From Spirochaetota bacterium (lineage in GTDB: Bacteria > Spirochaetota > UBA4802 > UB4802): 45,972 nucleotides of DNA. The stretch spans positions 1 to 45,972 of the forward strand of contig JBFLZD010000029.1 in NCBI GenBank assembly GCA_040756435.1. The letters are read 5' to 3'. A program made the position numbers and the translations under genes. Positions 4,292 through 19,422 of the stretch are shown piece after piece; positions within the stretch are counted from its first letter, which is position 1, and the number at the start of each line of letters is the position of its first letter. Below the pieces are notes generated by a model. The model saw only the letters and a list, made by a program, of their open reading frames with translations. It was not told where the DNA came from and ran no database searches.

Positions 4292-5208
4292 TGGTTACTC
4301 CTTTTTTGTGCAATGCCAATCAGGTCTTTTACCATATTAATAGAATGCGTTTTCATGTAATCTTCTAACTGTTTCAGAATAACAGCAGATATATCAGGAT
4401 GAATAAGATTTCCAGTACCTATCTGTATGGCTTGTGCACCAGCCATTAAGAATTCTAATGCATCTTCAAAACTGAATATACCACCAATGCCAATTACCGG
4501 TATGTCAACGTTTTGAACAATCTGATATACCATACGTAATGCTAACGGTTTAATTGCAGGGCCACTTAATCCTGCAAAAGTATTTGCAAAGTATGGCTTG
4601 CCAGTCGTTATATCGATCTTCATTCCTATAAAAGTATTCACCGCTGACACAGCATCAGCGCCAATTTCTTTAGCTGCTCGTGCAAATTGTGTAATATCAG
4701 TAACATTTGGCGAAAGCTTTACAATTAAAACGCCGCGGGTTACATCACGAACTTTTTCCAGTAGTTTTGAAAATACGGTAACATCCTGCCCAAATGCTAT
4801 CCCGCCTTCTTTTACATTGGGGCATGATACATTGAGTTCAATAGCTGCTATGCCATTTGTGTGTGAAAGTGTTTGTGCCAGTTCAACATTTTCTTCAACT
4901 GAGTGTCCTGCAATATTGGGAATAACTGTGGCATTAGCTTTTAACAAATACGGTAATTTATGCGATAGGAATGCTTCCAGTCCCACATTTTCAAGTCCAA
5001 TAGAGTTAAGCATTCCTGAAGGTGTTTCTGCTATGCGTGGTCCAGGGTTGCCAGCACGTGGTTTTAAGGATAACCCTTTTGTAAAAACTGCACCCAGGCT
5101 GCCAATATCAACAAATTGCGATAGTTCCTGGCCATAGCCTGCAGTACCGGATGCAACGGTTATAGGGTTTTTTAATTGTAAATTGCCAATTGTTACAGAA
5201 AGATTCAC
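4288..5208 (-). CDS. pyrD: Dihydroorotate dehydrogenase, class IB catalytic subunit
   Basis: This is a cytosolic FMN enzyme of pyrimidine synthesis that oxidises dihydroorotate to orotate. The 306-residue length and the active-site segment ELNVSCPNVKEGG, with a catalytic cysteine at about residue 129, mark class I. Class 1A and 1B both use Cys, and the sequence (NVSCPNVKEGG, C-terminal IGIGGI and AGAQAIQIGT) reads as the 1B type, which normally pairs with the PyrK Fe-S/FAD subunit and NAD. No pyrK is in this window. The gene lies upstream of hisC with a 4-base overlap. The first ATG gives the expected MNLSVTIGNLQLKNP start. Confidence 0.92.
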   Translation of the reverse strand: MNLSVTIGNLQLKNPITVASGTAGYGQELSQFVDIGSLGAVFTKGLSLKPRAGNPGPRIAETPSGMLNSIGLENVGLEAFLSHKLPYLLKANATVIPNIAGHSVEENVELAQTLSHTNGIAAIELNVSCPNVKEGGIAFGQDVTVFSKLLEKVRDVTRGVLIVKLSPNVTDITQFARAAKEIGADAVSAVNTFIGMKIDITTGKPYFANTFAGLSGPAIKPLALRMVYQIVQNVDIPVIGIGGIFSFEDALEFLMAGAQAIQIGTGNLIHPDISAVILKQLEDYMKTHSINMVKDLIGIAQKRSNQ

Positions 5209-8691: not shown

Positions 8692-9387
8692 TTAAACAAT
8701 TAAATTTTCGCCAACTAATTTAGTAAATGATTCAATGGTGACCCCCATACCATAGCCTGCACTTATTGTTGACAGTTGCAGGTGACAGTTTTCACAGGCG
8801 GTTACCACCATTTTAGCTCCGGTTTTTTCAATCTGCTCTTTTTTGGGTTTACCGCTTTTAATTCTAAATTCTTCATTATCCAGAGCAACAAGTCCACCGC
8901 CGCCGCCACAGCACCAGTTGTATTCACGTGTTGGATTCATTTCACGATAATCCTTTGCCAGCATCTGCAATACTTCACGTGGCTGATCATAAATACCACC
9001 ATTTCGCCCTAACTGGCATGGATCATGCCAGGTTACTGGTTCAGCGATGACACCTTCTTTGACCTTGATTCTGCCTTCTTTTATGTATCGATGAATCACT
9101 TCTACTATGCTTGATACTTTAAAGGGCAAAGGTCCCATTAAGAATTTAGGTATTCTGTATGCGGTGCCACACTCAACAATAACTATCTCCTTAACTCCTA
9201 ATTCTTTTGCTTCGTTAATGATTCTGTTGGCAATAAAATTTGCCTTTTCACTATCGCCTGCAAAGAAACCAAAGTTCACTGCCTCAAAGTAGCTGAGTGT
9301 CCAGTCTTCTTTTGCTGCATTGAAGATTGCAGCAGGATACACAATTGAGTGTGCGCCTGAAAGGCCAACAAAAAGTATATTGGCGCC
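8692..9387 (-). CDS. C-terminal part of DsrK/HdrD-like Fe-S oxidoreductase (two CCG-type domains), reached by a -1 frame change
   Basis: This frame holds the catalytic half of an HdrD/DsrK/GlpC-type protein. It has a first cysteine-rich domain with VECGTAYRIP, then a second CCG domain with WHDPCQLGRNGG, NWCCGGGGG and ACENCHLQL, which bind a noncubane [4Fe-4S] cluster in heterodisulfide reductases. It has no start of its own that makes sense: the first in-frame start-like codon is a GTG at 9342, and protein-like sequence (GANILFVGLSGAHSIV) continues upstream to the A7 run at 9388-9394. There the N-terminal half sits one frame away. Joined by a -1 shift at A AAA AAG the product is about 415 residues, normal for the family. 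This could be programmed frameshifting, a mutation or a homopolymer error. Confidence 0.85.
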   Translation of the reverse strand, partial: GANILFVGLSGAHSIVYPAAIFNAAKEDWTLSYFEAVNFGFFAGDSEKANFIANRIINEAKELGVKEIVIVECGTAYRIPKFLMGPLPFKVSSIVEVIHRYIKEGRIKVKEGVIAEPVTWHDPCQLGRNGGIYDQPREVLQMLAKDYREMNPTREYNWCCGGGGGLVALDNEEFRIKSGKPKKEQIEKTGAKMVVTACENCHLQLSTISAGYGMGVTIESFTKLVGENLIV

Positions 9388-9938
9388 TTTTTTTCCATAG
9401 GGATAAGCCCGTCACTGGTTGGAGCATTGATAAGCTTCTGAACCTCTTTTTCTAAGTCTTTGATAACGCCTTTAAATCCTTCTTTGAACATATCAACACT
9501 TTTGCCTTTTTCCACAGCGCCATCGGCAAGCATTACCAGTTCTTCAGGGGCATTGCCATAGGCAATAAGTAGTTCCTTGGCAATTCCAAGGATATACGGC
9601 ATATCAATACCAAACGGGCAGAACATAGTACAACGCCTGCATCCGGTACAAGAAAATGCAGCTTCCCTGAGTTCTTCCATCAGGTTTTCGTCAAATTCCT
9701 GTGCGTCGCCCCACCACGGGAAGAATTTTCCTGTTGGTTTGAAATATTTTCTAAATACTTTACGAACAACTTCAGCTCTTCCAACAGGGGAGTATTCCTT
9801 TTTGGGGATACCCTGATATGCATGACATGTATCATAACAAAGGCCACATCGAGTACATAGGTCCAGATAGTACAGCATGGGCCTGTTTAATTTCTTTTCA
9901 ATAACCTGTTTAAGTTCCAAAACTTTTTCCTTATCCAT
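9276..9938 (-). CDS. N-terminal part of DsrK/HdrD-like Fe-S oxidoreductase (two [4Fe-4S] ferredoxin motifs)
   Basis: This frame encodes the electron-entry half of a DsrK/HdrD-like subunit. It has two ferredoxin-type cluster motifs, CTRCGLCYDTCHAY near residue 28 and CTGCRRCTMFCPFG near residue 95. Good family sequence stops at MEKK (codon 184, about 9387). After that the frame continues with implausible residues to a stop at 9276, while the real continuation is in the -1 frame. The start ATG at 9938 lies 2 bases after the stop of the cytochrome b-like gene, so the pair is translationally linked. In DsrMK/HdrDE complexes this soluble subunit docks on the haem b membrane subunit and exchanges electrons between menaquinol and a thiol/disulfide or DsrC-type substrate. 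The substrate here is not known. Confidence 0.87.
   Translation of the reverse strand: MDKEKVLELKQVIEKKLNRPMLYYLDLCTRCGLCYDTCHAYQGIPKKEYSPVGRAEVVRKVFRKYFKPTGKFFPWWGDAQEFDENLMEELREAAFSCTGCRRCTMFCPFGIDMPYILGIAKELLIAYGNAPEELVMLADGAVEKGKSVDMFKEGFKGVIKDLEKEVQKLINAPTSDGLIPMEKKAPIYFLLAFQAHTQLCILLQSSMQQKKTGHSATLRQ
9387..9393 (-). other. A AAA AAG slippery heptamer at the frame change
   Basis: On the minus strand the zero-frame codons are GAA AAA AAG GCG, so the heptamer A AAA AAG is in the exact phase used for -1 slippage (as in dnaX). Slipping gives GAA AAA AAA-type decoding followed by GGC GCC AAT, which is the frame of the conserved C-terminal half. Just downstream GCCAA and TTGGC can pair around an 11-base loop, but the spacer is very short. 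A lost A in a run of eight would give the same result. Confidence 0.6.
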
Positions 9939-9940
9939 GG

Positions 9941-10663
9941 CTATTTCCTTTTACGATAATGTGCTAAAAATGTAAAAACTGAATGTACCATCTTGCTGAA
10001 TGGGAACATCATGAGGAAGATATTTGCAAAGAGTACATGAAGAACCAGTATAGTATAATGGGACAATTCAGTTATTTTGTACGATAGTTCCGGTTTAAGC
10101 AGAATCATGCTTTGCAGCCATTGTCGGTAAACATCTACGTTAACCCGCAACACAGCTCCCCAGTCGCTGTAGCGTTCAGCTAAATGCAGAATAGAGCCAA
10201 ACAATATGCAGAAGAAAAGTACCAGTAAAATCACAAAATCTTCTGGGATGGATATTTCACGATAGGGTGTACCAAAACGCCTGAATAAAAAGTACAGTGT
10301 TGTTATTATAAGAATAATACCAACAACACCGCCACCCAGAAAGATTTTATGGGGTATTACCTGAATAAATGAAAAATCATCTACCAGTTCAAGATGACCT
10401 AAGAAAAGGAAGAGGAATGCAATGTGAAAAATCATTATTATAAACCAGAATATCTTCTGCTTATTATACACGTTGGGGACTATCATGGCATCATAGATAA
10501 GCCCCAATACCTTTGAACCTTTTTTAGGAAAAATTGCTCCCGTCCCGGCTGGTACAGGAGCTTTAAAAATAACATAAAATTTATAGATAAGCCCTACAAT
10601 CAAGGTTACAAAGGCAATATATACCATTGGAACAAGTATAAAATAGGATATATAGCCCAGCAT
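9941..10663 (-). CDS. DsrM/NarI-like membrane cytochrome b subunit
   Basis: This 240-residue integral membrane protein has about five to six hydrophobic helices. Histidines sit within or beside helices, such as FHIAFLFLFLGHLEL and HYTILVLHVLF, fitting haem b ligation in the respiratory nitrate reductase gamma (NarI)/DsrM family. It directly precedes the DsrK/HdrD-like gene with a 2-base gap, the usual order for DsrMK or HdrED-like modules that link the menaquinone pool to cytoplasmic thiol/disulfide chemistry. Upstream lies tusA (23-base gap). No narGH or dsrJOP is present, so it is a minimal two-subunit complex. Confidence 0.82.
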   Translation of the reverse strand: MLGYISYFILVPMVYIAFVTLIVGLIYKFYVIFKAPVPAGTGAIFPKKGSKVLGLIYDAMIVPNVYNKQKIFWFIIMIFHIAFLFLFLGHLELVDDFSFIQVIPHKIFLGGGVVGIILIITTLYFLFRRFGTPYREISIPEDFVILLVLFFCILFGSILHLAERYSDWGAVLRVNVDVYRQWLQSMILLKPELSYKITELSHYTILVLHVLFANIFLMMFPFSKMVHSVFTFLAHYRKRK

Positions 10664-10686
10664 TATTCACCTCGCCTTATTGTTAG

Positions 10687-10926
10687 CTATTTAAGCTTTT
10701 TAATAAAAAATTTTGTTACATTACCATCTTTGACTGTATCAATGATTTCATTGCCACTTGTTTTTGCCCATGCAGGGAAATCTGCCAGTGCTCCGGGGTC
10801 AGTTGTTTCAGCCATAAGAATTTGACCAACCTGCATTTTCTTAATTTGCTGTGAAACTTTAACCACAGGTAGTGGACATGCCAATCCTTTTAAATCCATT
10901 GTTACATCTGCTTTAATGTCACTCAT
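10687..10926 (-). CDS. tusA: TusA-family sulfur carrier protein
   Basis: This small 79-residue cytoplasmic protein has the TusA signature: MDLKGLACPLPVVKV, with the sulfur-carrying cysteine at residue 17 in a CPxP motif, followed by the typical VGQILMAETTDPGA segment. TusA proteins accept persulfide sulfur from rhodaneses or desulfurases and pass it to DsrE-like or other partners. Its placement between a DsrE2-like gene and a DsrMK-like pair shows a role in dissimilatory sulfur handling rather than tRNA thiolation. A ribosome binding site (GGAG) lies just upstream of the ATG. Confidence 0.93.
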   Translation of the reverse strand: MSDIKADVTMDLKGLACPLPVVKVSQQIKKMQVGQILMAETTDPGALADFPAWAKTSGNEIIDTVKDGNVTKFFIKKLK

Positions 10927-11042
10927 AGTTTTACTCCTTAAATTTTCAAAATTTAAAATTTGTAATTAAAAGTTATAGTTAGCTTTACCAATGGAATAAT
11001 ATAATGCAAACATACATAATACAAGAAGAAATTTTAAAAAAA

Positions 11043-11582
11043 TTAGATAAACAACTGAATTTTACTGTCAGAGGCTTCCTGTAAAAATGTAGCAACACCT
11101 ACTGATTTCATATCCGGATAATCAATCATCTCATCCATTTTAAAGCCCATCAAATCCATCGACATTTCACATACATAGATTTTAACACCCAATTCAGCAG
11201 CAAGTGCAATCATTCCATCAAGATTCTGCATGTTCTTCTTCTTCATTAAGTATTTCATCATTCCGGTTCCCATGCCACCCATATTCATCTTTGACAATTT
11301 AACTTGTGATGCTCCTTTAGGCAGCATGAAGCTAAACATCCTGCCAAAGAGGTTTTTGCCTTTTCCTTTTTTCTTCTTGTCCCTGAGTGCTGGTGTAGCC
11401 CAGAAGGTAAAAAACATAACAACTTCCATACCCATGGCAACTGCACCGGTACCAATGATAAATGCTGCAAGGAGCTTGTCCAGGTCGCCGCTGAATACAA
11501 CCATTGAAAGCTTGTCTTTACGACCATCCTGAATCTCTTTAATCTGATTCTGAATGTCTTCTAACGTTTTGGTAACATCCAT
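11043..11582 (-). CDS. DsrE2-like protein (DsrE/DsrF/DrsH family)
   Basis: The 179-residue protein resembles the DsrE2 group, membrane-associated or hydrophobic relatives of DsrE that work with TusA and rhodanese in sulfur transfer. It has a coiled N-terminus, a segment VVFSGDLDKLLAAFIIGTGA, a hydrophobic stretch MEVVMFFTFWAT, a basic linker (KKKKGKGK), many methionines and a conserved-looking cysteine in VYVCEMSMDLMGF (IYVCEMS in this protein). I chose the ATG at 11582 because GGGGG stands 6 bases upstream; an ATG at 11648 adds 22 atypical residues. It is the first gene of the leftward sulfur operon, 116 bases before tusA. Confidence 0.85.
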   Translation of the reverse strand: MDVTKTLEDIQNQIKEIQDGRKDKLSMVVFSGDLDKLLAAFIIGTGAVAMGMEVVMFFTFWATPALRDKKKKGKGKNLFGRMFSFMLPKGASQVKLSKMNMGGMGTGMMKYLMKKKNMQNLDGMIALAAELGVKIYVCEMSMDLMGFKMDEMIDYPDMKSVGVATFLQEASDSKIQLFI

Positions 11583-11648
11583 TGTATACCCCCAATAATA
11601 ATTTGTAAAGTAAATATTTAATAAAATACTAAAATAATTATATGCCAT

Positions 11649-11990
11649 TTTTTAGAATTAAAAAATTTTTTTATCATACAATTATATAATTATTTGGTAA
11701 GCTATGATTTACTGAAAAATAAACTATTTAAATGATAAAGTCAAATTATTTTCAAAAGCTTTTTTTATGAATGATAGTGCTATGTTAGAGGGAATTTGAT
11801 TAGGATATCTTTCTACAATCGTATTCTATTAAATATAAAATTTCATAAGCAATAATTACACAATGAATATAAAATAAAATATTTTAAAAAAAAGATTGAC
11901 AAGGTATAATCAGCAATAAATATAATTCTAAAATAATTAAATTACTATATAATTATATGTTAAATATCTTTCTTCGTCAGGAGAATGTAA
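11649..11990 (+). promoter_or_regulatory. Divergent control region of the sulfur island with a candidate promoter
   Basis: This very AT-rich stretch of about 340 bases separates the two divergent sulfur operons and holds no plausible gene. On the plus strand TTGACA (11896-11901) is followed after 19 bases by TATAAT (11921-11926); another TATAAT lies at 11905-11910. AGGAG (11979-11983) stands 7 bases before the psrA-like ATG. Copies of ATAATTATATG occur near both ends of the region and could be binding sites or simply AT bias. Confidence 0.5.
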
Positions 11991-14195
11991 ATGTTAGGTA
12001 AAATTAGTAGAAGAGAATTTATCAAGATTGCAGGAACTGGTGTTGGAGCTCTGGCGGTGGGTGGTAGTCTATATAAATTAGCAAGTGATGTTATTTTTAA
12101 TAATGATGATAATGGACCAGTAGTAAAAACACCAACCTATTGTGAAATGTGTACATATCAGTGTGCAGGGTGGGTATATAAAAAGGGCACTGCACCATGG
12201 AAAATTGTTGGTAATGAACTTGATGAGCATTGTTATGGAAGAATGTGCACAAAAGGTTTATCAGGTCTTGGTGCATATTTGGATCCCAATAGGCTGAAAA
12301 CACCTTTAATAAGAAAAAAGGAAAGAGGAAAGCAGGTATTTAAAGAAGCTTCATGGGATGAAGCATTTGCCTATATTGCCGACAAAATGGAATATATTAA
12401 GCAAAAGTATGGTCCTGAAAGTGTTGCGTTATTCAGTCATGGCTCAGGTGGACATTGGTTTAAGACATTATTGAAGGCATATGGTACTAATAGTTTTGCT
12501 GCACCTTCCTATGCTAATTGTCGTGGTCCTCGTGAAGAAGGTTATGTCTTAACCTATGGTGAACCAATTGATACCCCAGAACGTACCGATATGAAAAATA
12601 CCAAATGTCTTGTGCTTATTGGTTCTCATATTGGCGAAAATACTCACAGTCAGCAGGTTATTGAATTTTCACAGGCAGTGGCAAATGGAGCAAGTATTAT
12701 AGTAGTAGATCCACGTTTTTCAGTGGCTGCCAGCAAGGCTAAATATTGGTTGCCAATTAAACCAGGTACTGATATTGCTTTGCTTTTAGCATGGATGCAT
12801 GTATTGATTTATGATGAATTATTTGATAAACGCTATGTGTTTAATAATACTGTTGGTTTTGAGCAACTAAAACAATCGGTTAAAAATACTACTCCTGAAT
12901 GGGCATACCCTATTACATCAATCCAACCAGAATTAATACGTGAAACAGCCAAAGAAATGGCAAAGTGCTCTCCTGCCACAATAATACACCCTGGCAGGCA
13001 TAATGTATGGTATGGTGATGATACCCAAAGAGTACGAGCAGGTGCAATTTTAAATGCATTATTGGGTAGCTGGGGAAGAAAAGGTGGATTCTTCTATCCT
13101 GAAAAAGTTGAATTGCCAGAATATCCAACCCCACCATTTCCTCATCCAAAAAAATCATTTAAGGATGCCGTGAATAATAAATATGAATTGGCAAATTTGA
13201 TTGTTTCATCAGGAATTTGTGATGCTACTATTCATAATGTAATGAATGGAAATTCATTTTATGAAGGATGGTTTATCTATGGTTCTAATCTACTAAAAGC
13301 TCTCCCACAACAGGAAAAAACTATCAAAGCCTTACAGGATCTTGAACTGGTTGTTGTTGTAGATATTTTGCCAACAGAAATAACGGGCTGGGCTGATGTT
13401 GTTCTTCCCGATACTACTTATTTAGAGCGATATGATGATATACGAACCTCGCAGGGGAGGACACCACAGATTGCTTTAAGAATGCCTGCATTCAATCCAA
13501 AATATAATTCCAGACCTGCCTGGTGGATAGCTAAAAACCTGGCCGAAAAAATGGGCCTTGGAGATTATTTCCCCTGGAAAACAATTGAAGAATATTTAGA
13601 TTATAAATTAAAAGCAGTTGGCACATCTTTAGAAGAAATGAAACAGGTTGGGGTTAAGAACTTTGAACGACAGACTCCCCTATATATTACTGGCTCTCAG
13701 TTGTCACGTTTGGACACTCCCAGTGGGAAGATTGAGTTGTATTCATCTACATTAGCAAGTTATGGTTTTGATCCTATACCTACTTATACAAAGCATGAAG
13801 ATCCTCCAAAAGGCTATTATAGGCTGTTATATGGCAGATCACCTTTCCATTCATTTGCGCGTACCATAAATAACCCTATACTGTCACAATTACAAAATGA
13901 AAATGCAGTTTGGGTACATCCAACAGTTGCTCAGGAATGGGGTTTAAAAAACGGCCAATATGTAAAACTAGAAAATCAGGATAGTGTAGTGAGTAATAAG
14001 GTAAAGGTTAAGGTAACCGAACGAATACGTCCGGATTGTGTGTATATGGTTCATGGATTTGGAAGTAGGCAAAAGCATCTTAAGCGTGCATTTAAGAAAG
14101 GCGCTGATGATCAACAACTTATAACTAAAGTTAATGTTGATCCGGTTATGGGTGGCCAGGCTATGCATGGTAATTTTGTTACCTTTAAAGTTTAG
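11991..14195 (+). CDS. psrA: Psr/Phs-type molybdopterin oxidoreductase, catalytic subunit
   Basis: This 734-residue complex iron-sulfur molybdoenzyme is exported by Tat: the N-terminus has SRREFIK and a hydrophobic stretch. The [4Fe-4S] cluster ligands are Cys51, Cys54, Cys58 and Cys86 with the CxxCxxxC-x27-C spacing. The likely molybdenum ligand is Cys177 in SYANCRGPREEG, as in polysulfide (PsrA) and thiosulfate (PhsA) reductases. The C-terminal molydopterin-dinucleotide domain is intact. It is followed by the PsrB-like and NrfD-type subunits, so it forms a periplasmic, quinol-linked complex. Substrate could be polysulfide, thiosulfate, tetrathionate or, less likely, arsenate; the surrounding TusA/DsrE2/YedE/rhodanese genes favour a sulfur substrate. 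Confidence 0.9.
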   Translation: MLGKISRREFIKIAGTGVGALAVGGSLYKLASDVIFNNDDNGPVVKTPTYCEMCTYQCAGWVYKKGTAPWKIVGNELDEHCYGRMCTKGLSGLGAYLDPNRLKTPLIRKKERGKQVFKEASWDEAFAYIADKMEYIKQKYGPESVALFSHGSGGHWFKTLLKAYGTNSFAAPSYANCRGPREEGYVLTYGEPIDTPERTDMKNTKCLVLIGSHIGENTHSQQVIEFSQAVANGASIIVVDPRFSVAASKAKYWLPIKPGTDIALLLAWMHVLIYDELFDKRYVFNNTVGFEQLKQSVKNTTPEWAYPITSIQPELIRETAKEMAKCSPATIIHPGRHNVWYGDDTQRVRAGAILNALLGSWGRKGGFFYPEKVELPEYPTPPFPHPKKSFKDAVNNKYELANLIVSSGICDATIHNVMNGNSFYEGWFIYGSNLLKALPQQEKTIKALQDLELVVVVDILPTEITGWADVVLPDTTYLERYDDIRTSQGRTPQIALRMPAFNPKYNSRPAWWIAKNLAEKMGLGDYFPWKTIEEYLDYKLKAVGTSLEEMKQVGVKNFERQTPLYITGSQLSRLDTPSGKIELYSSTLASYGFDPIPTYTKHEDPPKGYYRLLYGRSPFHSFARTINNPILSQLQNENAVWVHPTVAQEWGLKNGQYVKLENQDSVVSNKVKVKVTERIRPDCVYMVHGFGSRQKHLKRAFKKGADDQQLITKVNVDPVMGGQAMHGNFVTFKV

Positions 14196-14237
14196 TCAAT
14201 TTTTGAACCATACTTCAGATAATGAAAAGAGGTTAGC

Positions 14238-14789
14238 ATGAATAGTAAGACTAAAAAATATGCAATGGTAATAGATACCCGTTTATGTGTTGGTTGCGGA
14301 GCATGTGTTGCAGCATGTAAGATGGAAAATCAGGTTCCTGAAGGCTTACACCGGGATTGGATTGTAGAACAGGTTACAGGAACTTATCCTAATCTTTCTA
14401 TGGAGATTCGTTCTGAACGATGTAATCACTGTTCCAACGCTCCCTGCATTACCTCCTGCCCAACTGGGGCAAGCCATCGTAAAGAAGGGACAAATATAGT
14501 TGTTGTTACTGCCAATAAATGCACAGGTTGTAAAGCATGTATGGCTTCTTGTCCATACAATGCACGCTTTGTAATGCCCGATGGATATGTCAGCAAATGT
14601 ACTTTCTGTGAGCACAGATTGGATGAGGGTTTGGATCCTGCCTGTGCAGCTGCGTGTCCAACACATGCAATTTCATTTGGCAACTTACATGACAAAATGA
14701 GTCATGTTTCTAAATTATTAAAGGTAAGAAAATATAAAACAATTATCCCTGAAGCTGGGACTGAACCAAATATATTTTATTTACTGTGA
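14238..14789 (+). CDS. psrB: PsrB-like four-cluster ferredoxin subunit
   Basis: The 183-residue protein has four cysteine clusters typical of CISM electron-transfer subunits: CVGCGACVAACK, CNHCSNAPCITSCPTG, CTGCKACMASCPYNAR and CTFC...CAAACPTHA. It relays electrons between the membrane subunit and the molybdoenzyme and is probably co-exported with PsrA, since it lacks its own signal. It sits 42 bases after psrA with GAGG before the ATG. Family assignment is firm; the exact enzyme substrate depends on the catalytic subunit. Confidence 0.92.
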   Translation: MNSKTKKYAMVIDTRLCVGCGACVAACKMENQVPEGLHRDWIVEQVTGTYPNLSMEIRSERCNHCSNAPCITSCPTGASHRKEGTNIVVVTANKCTGCKACMASCPYNARFVMPDGYVSKCTFCEHRLDEGLDPACAAACPTHAISFGNLHDKMSHVSKLLKVRKYKTIIPEAGTEPNIFYLL

Positions 14790-14817
14790 AATTAAAGAAA
14801 TTATATGAGGTTTGACT

Positions 14818-15798
14818 ATGAATGAAATAGCATTGACTACAAAAAAAGCAATAGAAGCTGGCCATTCATTAGGAATATGGCGATGGGAAGTGCCCCTATA
14901 TCTTTTCCTGGGTGGACTTACTGCAGGAATTCTAATTATTGCAGCATGGATGATTTTAAAAGATAAAGAAAAGGAATTCCCCTTTTCCACCAATAAATTG
15001 ATTCTACTGTCACCAATTATTTTAAGTATTGGTATGTTTTTCCTTTTTCTGGATCTTGACCATAAATTGTATGTATGGCGATTTTACACAGCTTTTCGCA
15101 TTACATCAGTAATGTCGTGGGGTGCCTGGATATTAATCCTGGTTTATCCTTTAAGTATGGTGTTACTATTAGCAACAGTTAAAAAGGGTTATGCTGAATA
15201 TTACCAAAAGTTTTCTACGTGGCTGAAAGGAACAAAATATAATAAACTATCGCCCATAATTGAAAAACTGATTAATTGGTCAGAGAAATATAAAAAGCCA
15301 GTAGCAATGGCAGCAATACCTGTGGGAATATTATTGGGGATATATACCGGGATATTGTTAAGTGCATTTTCAGCACGACCATTCTGGAATTCCGGACTTC
15401 TTGGATTTTTATTTTTGATCTCAGGCTTATCAACAGGTGCTGCATTAATTATTTTATTAGCAAAAGAGCATCACGAGAGGATTTTTATAACAAAACTGGA
15501 TATAGGTTTTATTACTATTGAAGCTATAATTCTGGTTTTGTATATTTTTGGAATGCTTTCTTCCTCATTGCAGCATATTGATGCTATACAATTAATTTTA
15601 GGGGGAGAGCTAACCCCGGTATTCTGGTCTTTTGTATTTGCTATTGGGATGATAATCCCATTAGCACTTGAGATACTTGAACTCAGAGGAAAAGCAATAC
15701 CCGTACATATTGCTGCGTCTTTAGTACTTATTGGGGGATTGGCATTACGTTTTATCTTTGTTGAGGCTGGTCAAATTTCTAACTGGCTTCCTTATTAA
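14818..15798 (+). CDS. psrC: NrfD/PsrC-type quinol-interacting membrane subunit
   Basis: This 326-residue polytopic membrane protein has about eight hydrophobic helices. The start region WRWEVPLYLFLGGLTAGILI is the classic NrfD/PsrC signature. It anchors the PsrAB-like subunits and exchanges electrons with menaquinone on the periplasmic side; it carries no haem. The NrfD type argues for Psr-like rather than PhsC (cytochrome b) architecture. I chose ATG 14818, with GAGG (14807-14810) 7 bases upstream, over the in-frame TTG at 14812. Confidence 0.91.
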   Translation: MNEIALTTKKAIEAGHSLGIWRWEVPLYLFLGGLTAGILIIAAWMILKDKEKEFPFSTNKLILLSPIILSIGMFFLFLDLDHKLYVWRFYTAFRITSVMSWGAWILILVYPLSMVLLLATVKKGYAEYYQKFSTWLKGTKYNKLSPIIEKLINWSEKYKKPVAMAAIPVGILLGIYTGILLSAFSARPFWNSGLLGFLFLISGLSTGAALIILLAKEHHERIFITKLDIGFITIEAIILVLYIFGMLSSSLQHIDAIQLILGGELTPVFWSFVFAIGMIIPLALEILELRGKAIPVHIAASLVLIGGLALRFIFVEAGQISNWLPY

Positions 15799-15827
15799 AT
15801 ATCATTTATTTTCAGGAGGAATATTGT

Positions 15828-16340
15828 ATGGAAAAGAAACCTTACGCATCACCCTACATAGCTGGAGTGGGTTTGGGGTTGGTGTTATTGGCAGCTTTTT
15901 TCTTTACTGGCCATGGGCTTGGAGCTTCTGGAGCAATTACCCGTTCTATTGTTGCTGTTGAAAAAGTCATATCACAGGAGCATGTTGACAATAATGCGTA
16001 TCTTGCTGAGTATGGTGGAGGTGATACAAACCCATTGAATAACTGGCTTGTTTTTCAATTGTTGGGTGTTATCGTGGGCGGTATGCTTTCGGGAATTATT
16101 GCAGGAAGATTTAGAAAGGAAATCAATCATGGGCCTCAGATTACGCCAAAACAACGATGGCTTTATGCAATAATTGGTGGTGCTCTTTTTGGTTTTGGAG
16201 CAAAATTTGCACGTGGCTGCACCAGTGGTTTTATATTAACTGGTGGAGCCGGACTGGCATTGGGTGCCTGGGTTGGAATGATGGTGATGTTTGCAGTTGC
16301 TTATATCACAGCGTATTTTGTTAGAAAACTTTGGATATAA
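15828..16340 (+). CDS. YeeE/YedE-family sulfur transporter, first half-size protein
   Basis: The 170-residue membrane protein belongs to the YeeE/YedE family (thiosulfate/sulfur uptake). It has about four hydrophobic segments and the conserved cysteine motif GAKFARGCTSGF followed by a glycine-rich helix. Full-length YeeE/YedE proteins are about 350 residues with several such motifs; here the function is split into this gene and the next. A good ribosome binding site, AGGAGG, precedes the ATG. It is 29 bases downstream of psrC, so it is part of the same operon and likely imports the sulfur compound or returns sulfur across the membrane. Confidence 0.88.
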   Translation: MEKKPYASPYIAGVGLGLVLLAAFFFTGHGLGASGAITRSIVAVEKVISQEHVDNNAYLAEYGGGDTNPLNNWLVFQLLGVIVGGMLSGIIAGRFRKEINHGPQITPKQRWLYAIIGGALFGFGAKFARGCTSGFILTGGAGLALGAWVGMMVMFAVAYITAYFVRKLWI

Positions 16341-16351
16341 GGGGTGGGGAT

Positions 16352-16957
16352 ATGTTTGCACCATTATCAGTATATTTTAATTGGAGTAATGGAATTGATT
16401 TATTGGTTTCATTTATAATAGGTATTGGATTTGGATTTGCATTGGAACAGGGTGGTTTTGGAAATTCAAGAAAATTAGCTATGCAGTTTTACTTCCGTGA
16501 CCTAACAGTTTTAAAAGTTATGTTTTCAGCAATGGTTACAGCAATGACCGGGATAGTATTCTTTACTGCTTTTGGATGGCTAGATACCAATAGCATGTTT
16601 GTACCTCAGACTTATATCTGGGCTCAGATAGTAGGTTGTGCTATCATGGGCGTTGGGTTTGCTATTGGAGGCTATTGTCCGGGCACCAGTTTTGTTGGTC
16701 TATCTACATTAAAAATGGATGCTCTTTTCTTCATCATAGGCCTTTTTATTGGTGTCTTTTTGTTTGGTGAAATGTTTCCAATTTTGGAAGAGCTATATCA
16801 TGGCAAGTACAGTGGTAATATGGGAAGAATAACATTGAATGAATTTTTGGGTGTGCGGCCTGGTATCATTGCAGCTATTATCTTAATTGTGGCAATTGGT
16901 GCATTCTGGGGATCTGAAAAGATAGAAGAAAAATTTGGTAACCAAATTATACAGTAA
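16352..16957 (+). CDS. YeeE/YedE-family sulfur transporter, second half-size protein
   Basis: This second 201-residue YeeE/YedE protein has GFALEQGGFGNSRKLAMQFY near the N-terminus and the cysteine motif GYCPGTSFVGLSTLKMD, both typical of the family. I chose ATG 16352, which follows GGGGTGGGGA directly after the stop of the first half; a TTG at 16331 would overlap it. Together the two halves make one transporter-sized unit with two conserved cysteines, thought in this family to pass sulfur by transient persulfide contacts. It lies 10 bases before the rhodanese-fold gene. Confidence 0.88.
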   Translation: MFAPLSVYFNWSNGIDLLVSFIIGIGFGFALEQGGFGNSRKLAMQFYFRDLTVLKVMFSAMVTAMTGIVFFTAFGWLDTNSMFVPQTYIWAQIVGCAIMGVGFAIGGYCPGTSFVGLSTLKMDALFFIIGLFIGVFLFGEMFPILEELYHGKYSGNMGRITLNEFLGVRPGIIAAIILIVAIGAFWGSEKIEEKFGNQIIQ

Positions 16958-16967
16958 GGAGTGTGCT

Positions 16968-17588
16968 ATGAAACTTGAAAACAAACAAATAGCTGTATAC
17001 ACGGCAATTCTATTAGCAATAATTATGCTGTTTCTTCCTGGTCCTGATCCATCTAAGATTAATTTAGATTTGCATGCAATGGCCCAAATTATTGGGAATA
17101 AGGAAGATCATGTTACACCTGGAGAATTGTCGCAGTGGATCATAGCAGGGAATAATGACTATCAATTGATTGATATACGATCAAAAGATGAATATGATAA
17201 AGGACATATTGAAGGTTCAATAAATATCCCCCTTGAAAATCTTTTAAACAAGAACGTAATAGCTGATGAACTCAATCATGATAAAAAAATTGTATTGTAT
17301 TCAAATGGAAGCTCACATGCATCGCAGGCATGGGTTGTGCTGAAAGGATTAGGGTTTGACTGTTATATACTTGAGGGCGGATATAATGGCTGGAATGCTG
17401 TTGTACTTAATCCTGCAACTGGGTCAAATGCGACTGATGATGAAGTATTGCTGTATGCCAAACAAAAAGCTGTTGCAGAATATTTTGGTGGGAGCAATAT
17501 TCAAATGCAAAAACCAATTAATAATGTTGCACCTGCAGCACCACAAAAACCACAGGGAGTAAAGAAGAAAAAGATGCAGGGGTGTTAA
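16968..17588 (+). CDS. Membrane-anchored rhodanese-fold protein lacking the active-site cysteine
   Basis: The 206-residue protein has an N-terminal hydrophobic anchor or signal (residues 8-24) and a rhodanese domain from about 48 to 140: YQLIDIRSKDEYDKGHIEGSINIP and the C-terminal LEGGYNGW. The catalytic loop reads LYSNGSSHAS, so the usual cysteine (LYCxxGxRS) is Ser112. The protein ends in a low-complexity Pro/Gln/Lys tail whose last residue is a cysteine (MQGC). It may bind sulfur through this terminal Cys or act as a scaffold; both are inference. I chose ATG 16968, 6 bases after AAGGAG. It is the last gene of the rightward sulfur operon. Confidence 0.87.
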   Translation: MKLENKQIAVYTAILLAIIMLFLPGPDPSKINLDLHAMAQIIGNKEDHVTPGELSQWIIAGNNDYQLIDIRSKDEYDKGHIEGSINIPLENLLNKNVIADELNHDKKIVLYSNGSSHASQAWVVLKGLGFDCYILEGGYNGWNAVVLNPATGSNATDDEVLLYAKQKAVAEYFGGSNIQMQKPINNVAPAAPQKPQGVKKKKMQGC

Positions 17589-17613
17589 ACAAAAGAATAA
17601 TTTAATTATTATT

Positions 17614-17645
17614 AAAGGGGCTATAACACTTAGCCCCTTTTTTTA
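17614..17645 (+). terminator. Rho-independent terminator of the psr-yedE-rhodanese operon
   Basis: AAAGGGGCTA (17614-17623) pairs with TAGCCCCTTT (17631-17640) around a 7-base loop, followed by a T run. It lies 26 bases after the rhodanese stop codon and closes the sulfur island on the right. Confidence 0.93.
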
Positions 17646-17717
17646 TTTGATTTCGTAGTATACTATAGTTATTAATGTTTCATAGGTAATTTAAAAAAAA
17701 TAATAAAAGATTGCAAT

Positions 17718-17897
17718 ATGGTAAACGAAAAAGAACCATTTAACAGTGAAGAAAGAATGAATGATAATCCTCAAAAGGCACTTTTTGCACTTCAAATGTA
17801 TTTAAATCGCTTTATGTGGATTTCCACACGGGAGATAGTTACTGGTGTAAGCTCGTTATATTATAATGATACCAAAAGTGATAAAAAAACCGAATGA
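17718..17897 (+). CDS. Small hypothetical protein (59 residues)
   Basis: An ATG at 17718 opens a 59-codon frame ending at TGA 17895-17897. The product is charged at both ends with a central amphipathic stretch (ALFALQMYLNRFMWIS), so it could be a small regulator or membrane-associated peptide. Codon use looks like that of its neighbours. The ribosome binding site is weak. It lies just after the sulfur-operon terminator and convergent with the pectinacetylesterase-family gene. I know no family for it. Confidence 0.45.
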   Translation: MVNEKEPFNSEERMNDNPQKALFALQMYLNRFMWISTREIVTGVSSLYYNDTKSDKKTE

Positions 17898-17931
17898 GCA
17901 TTTCCATATAATAGCACAATAGCGAATATGG

Positions 17932-19182
17932 TTACTGGCAAACTACATTTTCCGGTTGCTGACAATCAGTACAAACAACGTTTGTGAAAGTTGCACCTCC
18001 TTCAACAATGCTGCGCAACCAGTCAACAAAACGAACATCATTTACTGTCAGTGTATACACTTCGTTGTTCATGAGTATCGTATGAACCTCGCCAGGTGAA
18101 ATAAAATAGGCATAATTATTGGGATCTGTGGTCAAATTAGCAACAGTCGTATCTAAAATTGATAGCATTTCATCATGCCAATCGCACCATACACTTTCAA
18201 GGGGGTTATACCAGTTTTCATAATCTGTTCCAGGATTTTCTATATTCAGCATCACATTATAAAAGAAAACCTGATTTTCATCCCATGCAGCAGTGTATTG
18301 TCCAAAGCGATAGTTACTGTAAAAATTGGCTATTGTTGAATAAAGATCTGCAATGGTTAATCCATCAATATTATATGAATCAAACTCATGAAAAGTTCCT
18401 GTATCAGGCAAGGAAGCACCCCATAGCGTATCAATATTTTGTTTGAACGTATTAGTGATAACTCCATTGCCGGCATCTCCCAAAAGGTGAATTTCTGAGT
18501 TAGTAAATTCCTCTGCAATATACGGAAAATTGAATATTGCACCATAAGAGCCGGCACTAATGCCAGTTACAAAAATAACATCTGGATCAGGATTTTTAAA
18601 GTGGTCTTTAAGCCATTGCAGTACTAGCTGAAAATTTACATGACCTCTATGGCGAATTGTTGCACTTAAAGTATTTTTTGTATATTCGGTGTCACTCTGC
18701 CCCCAGTGGAGATCGCCTGTGCAATAGGGTATATACACAAAATTCCAGTCTTTAAAAGGATTTTCAGGATTAGTAAAATCAAATATTCCACTATAACCCA
18801 TAGACTTTGCTTGCCCATTGCTTATTAAATTGAGAATATCTGCATTGTCATAATACATAAGCTCTTCTGAATACGTTGGTTTTTCCACACAATTGTTATA
18901 GTGCCAGCATGCACCACCACCCTGGAAATAAATGACTAACTTATTGGTTGTACCATAGCGGACAAAAAATAAAAACTTTGAGCTTGCAGTTGAGGGGTGA
19001 TTTGAGCAGGATGGTGACAATCCATTATAATAGAATGAAGCATAACTACCGTTATCTGCAGTTTCCCAGTCAATCTGCTGCCAGTAGTTTGTAGGTGTAT
19101 TAGAGTCAGAATTAGAACCTGAATCTCCACAGTTTGTAAGAAAAATGATTGCTGCAATTAGAAAAATATATTTATAATTCAT
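17932..19182 (-). CDS. Pectinacetylesterase-family lipoprotein (alpha/beta hydrolase)
   Basis: The 416-residue protein begins with a hydrophobic signal ending in FLTNC, a loose lipobox with Asn before the Cys, then a Ser/Asn/Asp linker, so it is likely a surface or periplasmic lipoprotein. The mature part has the family motifs FQGGGACW and TGISAGSYGA (GxSxG nucleophile serine), with a late GEVHTI segment giving the histidine. Related proteins include plant pectin acetylesterases and animal Notum, so deacylation of a carbohydrate or lipid ester is plausible; the substrate is unknown. ATG 19182 was chosen because AGGAGG stands 7 bases upstream; a TTG at 19188 is in frame. Confidence 0.86.
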   Translation of the reverse strand: MNYKYIFLIAAIIFLTNCGDSGSNSDSNTPTNYWQQIDWETADNGSYASFYYNGLSPSCSNHPSTASSKFLFFVRYGTTNKLVIYFQGGGACWHYNNCVEKPTYSEELMYYDNADILNLISNGQAKSMGYSGIFDFTNPENPFKDWNFVYIPYCTGDLHWGQSDTEYTKNTLSATIRHRGHVNFQLVLQWLKDHFKNPDPDVIFVTGISAGSYGAIFNFPYIAEEFTNSEIHLLGDAGNGVITNTFKQNIDTLWGASLPDTGTFHEFDSYNIDGLTIADLYSTIANFYSNYRFGQYTAAWDENQVFFYNVMLNIENPGTDYENWYNPLESVWCDWHDEMLSILDTTVANLTTDPNNYAYFISPGEVHTILMNNEVYTLTVNDVRFVDWLRSIVEGGATFTNVVCTDCQQPENVVCQ

Positions 19183-19422
19183 ATGCAAACCTCCTATTTA
19201 TTTATATTTGAAAATATATCAATGTGTATTAAAAAAAGCAATTCAAATCTACATATATTTTTGTGATTTTATTTTCAGTGCTCATTAATAAAAATATTTT
19301 AAGTATACAGCAATGAATTATTTAGTTCCACTGTTAGTGGAGGAGGGAATAAAGCATTTGGTCACTTAAAAAAGCTAAGGAATAATTACTGAATTGTTTT
19401 AATACATTACTTTTTATAAAAT

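Follow-up and report, generated by a model that had tools for sequence, protein, structure and literature searches.

An in-phase A_AAA_AAG heptamer in a broken Fer4/CCG gene of a Spirochaetota bacterium, very probably the by-product of one lost base

The window analysed in this work, a 45,972-nucleotide stretch of DNA from a Spirochaetota bacterium, carries on its minus strand a gene whose ferredoxin (Fer4) half and cysteine-rich (CCG) half lie in different reading frames, with the slippery heptamer A_AAA_AAG at the break. It is very probable that this is an ordinary single-frame Fer4/CCG gene of about 415 residues bearing a private one-base deletion, which is either a mutation or a consensus or assembly error, and that the heptamer is a by-product. 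A single nucleotide would have been lost from a lysine-coding stretch, in the window's assembly alone, turning GAA AA(A/G) AAA GGC into GAA AAA AAG GCG. This may have happened in one step, by direct loss of the G that separates A4 from A3, or in two, with a silent G-to-A change producing A8 and a later contraction leaving A7. The base loss would create A7G and, with it, the in-phase heptamer. Two points fit this explanation less well: in its one-step form, the missing base must be the G flanked by A4 and A3, which is not a simple homopolymer contraction, and the sequence downstream of the heptamer folds somewhat better than shuffled versions of it (z -2.7).

The two halves and their junction

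The 0-frame ORF (9938-9276, minus strand) is 220 aa long and encodes the dicluster ferredoxin half (Fer4_8, E=5e-12), being truncated and out of frame beyond residue ~184. The CCG half (PF02754, E=3e-18) occupies the -1 frame, from its first GTG at 9342 to the stop at 8692 on the same strand. At the site, the 0-frame ORF reads ATG GAA AAA AAG GCG; the A7 run lies at 9394-9388 and is followed by G, and the codons place A_AAA_AAG, an X_XXY_YYZ heptamer in the canonical 0-frame phase, at 9393-9387. A -1 step there joins both halves without loss of residues into a protein of 415 aa. On these matters of frame and phase, the sequence-only reading, which had described the heptamer and the two halves in the same terms, was accurate. 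The joined product reads EKKGANILFVGLSGAH at the junction and the unshifted product KKAPIYFLLAFQAH; the latter ends in an out-of-frame tail of ~36 residues that is without counterpart in relatives.

Both domains score above their Pfam cut-offs, one per half, and relatives carry both in a single frame. With a dicluster ferredoxin at its N-terminus and a CCG domain after it, the joined protein belongs to the Fer4/CCG (HdrD/DsrK/TmcB) superfamily, and it shares this make-up with DsrK, TmcB and HmcF, the iron-sulfur subunits of respiratory sulfur complexes. These three are also its nearest NCBIfam families; however, it falls well under all three cut-offs, with 265.3 bits against 400 for DsrK of the DsrMKJOP complex (NF045796), 202 against 735 for TmcB and 189 against 750 for HmcF. 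The earlier label "DsrK/HdrD-like" is thus apt at the superfamily level but not for DsrK proper, and the protein may merit a separate family name. No second intact copy of the gene is present in the source assembly of the window (G000).

Comparison with relatives and the origin of the break

The source assembly comprises 3.6 Mb in 126 contigs and is 99.65% complete; in GTDB, it is closely related to spirochaete MAGs. The gene is one uninterrupted frame of 414-416 residues in all four congeners (98, 95, 93 and 90% amino acid identity to the window gene) and in 16 further genomes of the order, so that 20 of 20 full-length homologues are single-frame, and the congeners lack an in-phase heptamer. 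In the DNA alignment, GAAAA-AAAGG of the window stands against GAAAAGAAAGG in three congeners (G001, G003 and G004), with one base missing; over a wider stretch, the window reads ATGGAAAA-AAAGGCGCC, these three congeners ATGGAAAAGAAAGGNGC and the fourth (G002) ATGGATAAAAAAGGTGCC. Among the five aligned sequences, the base is missing only in the window, whose A7 run (9388-9394) would need one more base to match the frame that all relatives have. Since three congeners carry GAAAAGAAAGG, the slippery run is not ancestral, and the alignment suggests that the ancestral codons were most likely AAG AAA rather than AAA AAA. The idea that one A had been lost from A8, whether in the cell or in the assembly, is therefore supported as regards the lost base, with the refinement that the sisters have A4-G-A3 and not A8.

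The central proposal of the sequence-only reading, namely that a -1 slippery site joins the halves and that a truncated product is also made, does not stand against these sequences. It had named as evidence against itself close relatives in which the frame is unbroken and the slippery run is lacking, and G001, G003 and G004 are of exactly this kind; G002 is also uninterrupted, with a different A6 run in a non-canonical phase. It is the comparison with homologues that settles the question of recoding. Two genomes that appeared to be further broken cases were rejected: in G005, the gene is cut by a contig end, and in G033, the break is a run of N.

Elsewhere in the order, A_AAA_AAG also stands in this phase in two homologues (L016 and L024), which read on in frame 0 as KKN or KKD, and a third (L018) has A8 in frame; all this indicates that the heptamer is a codon-usage accident of a Glu-Lys-Lys motif. 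When one base is lost from such a stretch, GAA AA(A/G) AAA G, the in-phase heptamer arises automatically. A count over 336 ORFs (376 kb) of the genome gave 90 instances of AAAAAAG in the canonical phase, and of the 58 coding A8 runs, 10 would become in-phase A_AAA_AAG after loss of one A; in E. coli, the A AAA AAG sequence occurs in 68 genes, and spontaneous frameshifting in vivo is in the range of 1e-4 to 1e-5 (PMC9307594). Being both common in the genome and automatic upon base loss, the heptamer and its phase add little and are not independent evidence of recoding. This is a caution for AT-rich genomes, where a base lost within a Glu-Lys-Lys motif yields an in-phase A_AAA_AAG that seems to restore the frame.

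Both halves show purifying selection without relaxation: compared with its congeners, the window gives a dN/dS of about 0.02-0.04 in each, and the 3' half has accumulated 6 nonsynonymous and 25 synonymous changes on the window branch, compared with 4 and 30 on the sister branch. A CCG half left untranslated over a sizeable part of the branch should have gathered far more nonsynonymous changes; hence, either the break arose very recently, or the cells do not have it, or it is compensated. Judging by the intact frames of the relatives, compensation is not needed to explain the selection.

The frameshift rate was assessed by comparing G000 with G003 over 117 genes including the window gene (~118 kb), and no other genuine frameshift was found in G000 among the 116 further genes. 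Of the 135 homopolymer runs of at least seven in these genes, only the one at 9388-9394 is at a broken frame, which speaks against a general tendency of the assembly to homopolymer errors; among the 106 runs of exactly seven in these genes, the A7 of the Fer4/CCG gene is likewise the only such case. Two other candidates were dismissed, as a multi-frame match in L057/L079 is a pair of paralogues, and a frame difference in pyrD at 4304 falls within the final codons and is also seen in G001.

One isolated event fits a recent mutation and a sporadic consensus error about equally. We give an even chance to a very recent mutation in the sampled population, presumably causing loss of function or leaving the gene slightly leaky at best, and a chance somewhat short of even to a consensus or assembly error. 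The error is made less likely by the otherwise clean assembly, while a real null allele would be somewhat surprising in so conserved an operon; if the deletion is real, the population has lost an electron-transfer subunit kept by the whole genus. Singleton frameshifts validated by homologues have been classed as sequencing errors or recent indels, with programmed shifts needing a conserved site (PMC3711429). Our case resembles the singleton frameshifted genes of GeneTack in occurring in a single genome, in having intact homologues and in its poly-A context, and no difference from them appeared among the features tested (PMC3711429). A comparable isolated break was observed within the genus: G003 carries its own frameshift in the homologue (L037, about 17541-18842) of the 418-aa gene at 17932-19188, adjoining a short A run (A4 to A5).

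Recoding, slippage and a split pair

Programmed -1 ribosomal frameshifting at A_AAA_AAG would yield a ferredoxin-only protein beside the full-length one. The canonical heptamer in canonical phase, the joining of the halves without residue loss, the selection on the CCG half and a downstream hairpin all speak for it, yet we consider it hardly probable, since the site is neither conserved nor needed in any relative, L016 and L024 leave the same heptamer unused, and the tail of the truncated product has no counterpart. The hairpin (9364-9384, minus strand; arms 9384-9378 and 9370-9364) has 7 bp rather than the 5 bp described earlier, and it begins only ~2 nt past the heptamer, so the earlier judgement that it is too close and the stimulators unconvincing is borne out. 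It is not a conserved stimulator either: the corresponding region folds most strongly in G001, which has no slip site (-22.2 kcal/mol, z -4.6), and the hairpin is absent from G003 and G004, which means that it does not track the slip site. By inspection, no AGGAG-like Shine-Dalgarno element is present ~10 nt before the heptamer, in the upstream GACGGGCTTATCCCTATGG. Both tRNA-Lys(UUU) and tRNA-Lys(CUU) are encoded in G000, in contrast to E. coli, whose only tRNA-Lys, the UUU species, decodes AAA as well as AAG and favours the shift at A_AAA_AAG (PMC5009743); from this contrast, slippage is expected to be less favoured with two tRNA-Lys species. The site is thus identical in sequence and phase to that of the E. 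coli dnaX -1 frameshift, but it differs in lacking the Shine-Dalgarno-like element, in the short and unconserved hairpin spacing, in the two tRNA-Lys species, in congeners without an in-phase heptamer and in homologues that encode the long product without a shift.

Rescue may also be imagined at other levels. If a fresh deletion is tolerated in a living population, spontaneous -1 slippage at A_AAA_AAG might be frequent enough for the complex to go on functioning ("savior" or compensatory frameshifting), possibly as a first step towards a programmed site; we think this very unlikely. With transcriptional slippage on the A7 run, part of the mRNAs would gain an A and some full-length protein would be rescued. 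A poly-A run does sit at the exact site, and slippage on poly-A is known in bacteria (PMC5009743), but the A runs used for it are longer than seven (n > 7; PMC3711429), whereas the run here is A7. Moreover, just one of the 106 seven-base runs mentioned above is at a broken frame, and such slippage could supply leakiness only, which makes this explanation extremely unlikely. Equally faint is the chance that a ferredoxin protein and a CCG protein work as a split pair. HdrC and HdrB are separate polypeptides in known systems, and the GTG at 9342 could open the CCG half; however, by inspection, no plausible ribosome-binding site precedes this GTG, starting there would cost the conserved segment GANILFVGLSGAHSI its first ~17 residues, and the end of the first ORF lies 67 nt downstream of the start of the second, a poor geometry for coupling.

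The operon and its neighbourhood

The Fer4/CCG gene belongs to an operon whose other members, all on the minus strand, are intact: a NarI/DsrM/TmcC-like membrane cytochrome subunit (9941-10663), which adjoins the Fer4/CCG gene, a TusA sulfurtransferase (10687-10926) and a DsrE2-like protein (11043-11648). The order DsrE2-TusA-NarI-like-Fer4/CCG (8692-11648 in the window; loci L002-L021) is kept in nearly all relatives of the order. The neighbouring membrane subunit is a further likeness to DsrK, TmcB and HmcF; the setting is distinct, since the gene lies in a TusA-DsrE2 operon and not in dsrMKJOP. Judging by these families, the Fer4/CCG subunit is probably the cytoplasmic electron-transfer partner of the adjoining NarI-like cytochrome in a sulfur-handling operon. 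An assignment of the operon to sulfur disproportionation (YTD), weighed from the literature, was set aside, as the YeeE/YedE-like genes lie here in a separate, divergently transcribed operon.

Two minor observations concern this neighbourhood. In the DsrE2-like protein, conservation sets in only at an internal start; the N-terminal residues ahead of the second Met are unconserved, and indels relative to relatives fall at 11585-11624. The ORF as listed begins ahead of the conserved region, and the indels suggest that translation really starts at the internal ATG near 11582. Beyond it, the window carries at 11672-17765 a Phs/Psr-like molybdopterin oxidoreductase operon with catalytic, Fer4 and NrfD subunits, two YeeE/YedE-like halves and a rhodanese, which is absent from this site in G001, G003 and G002 and syntenic in G004.
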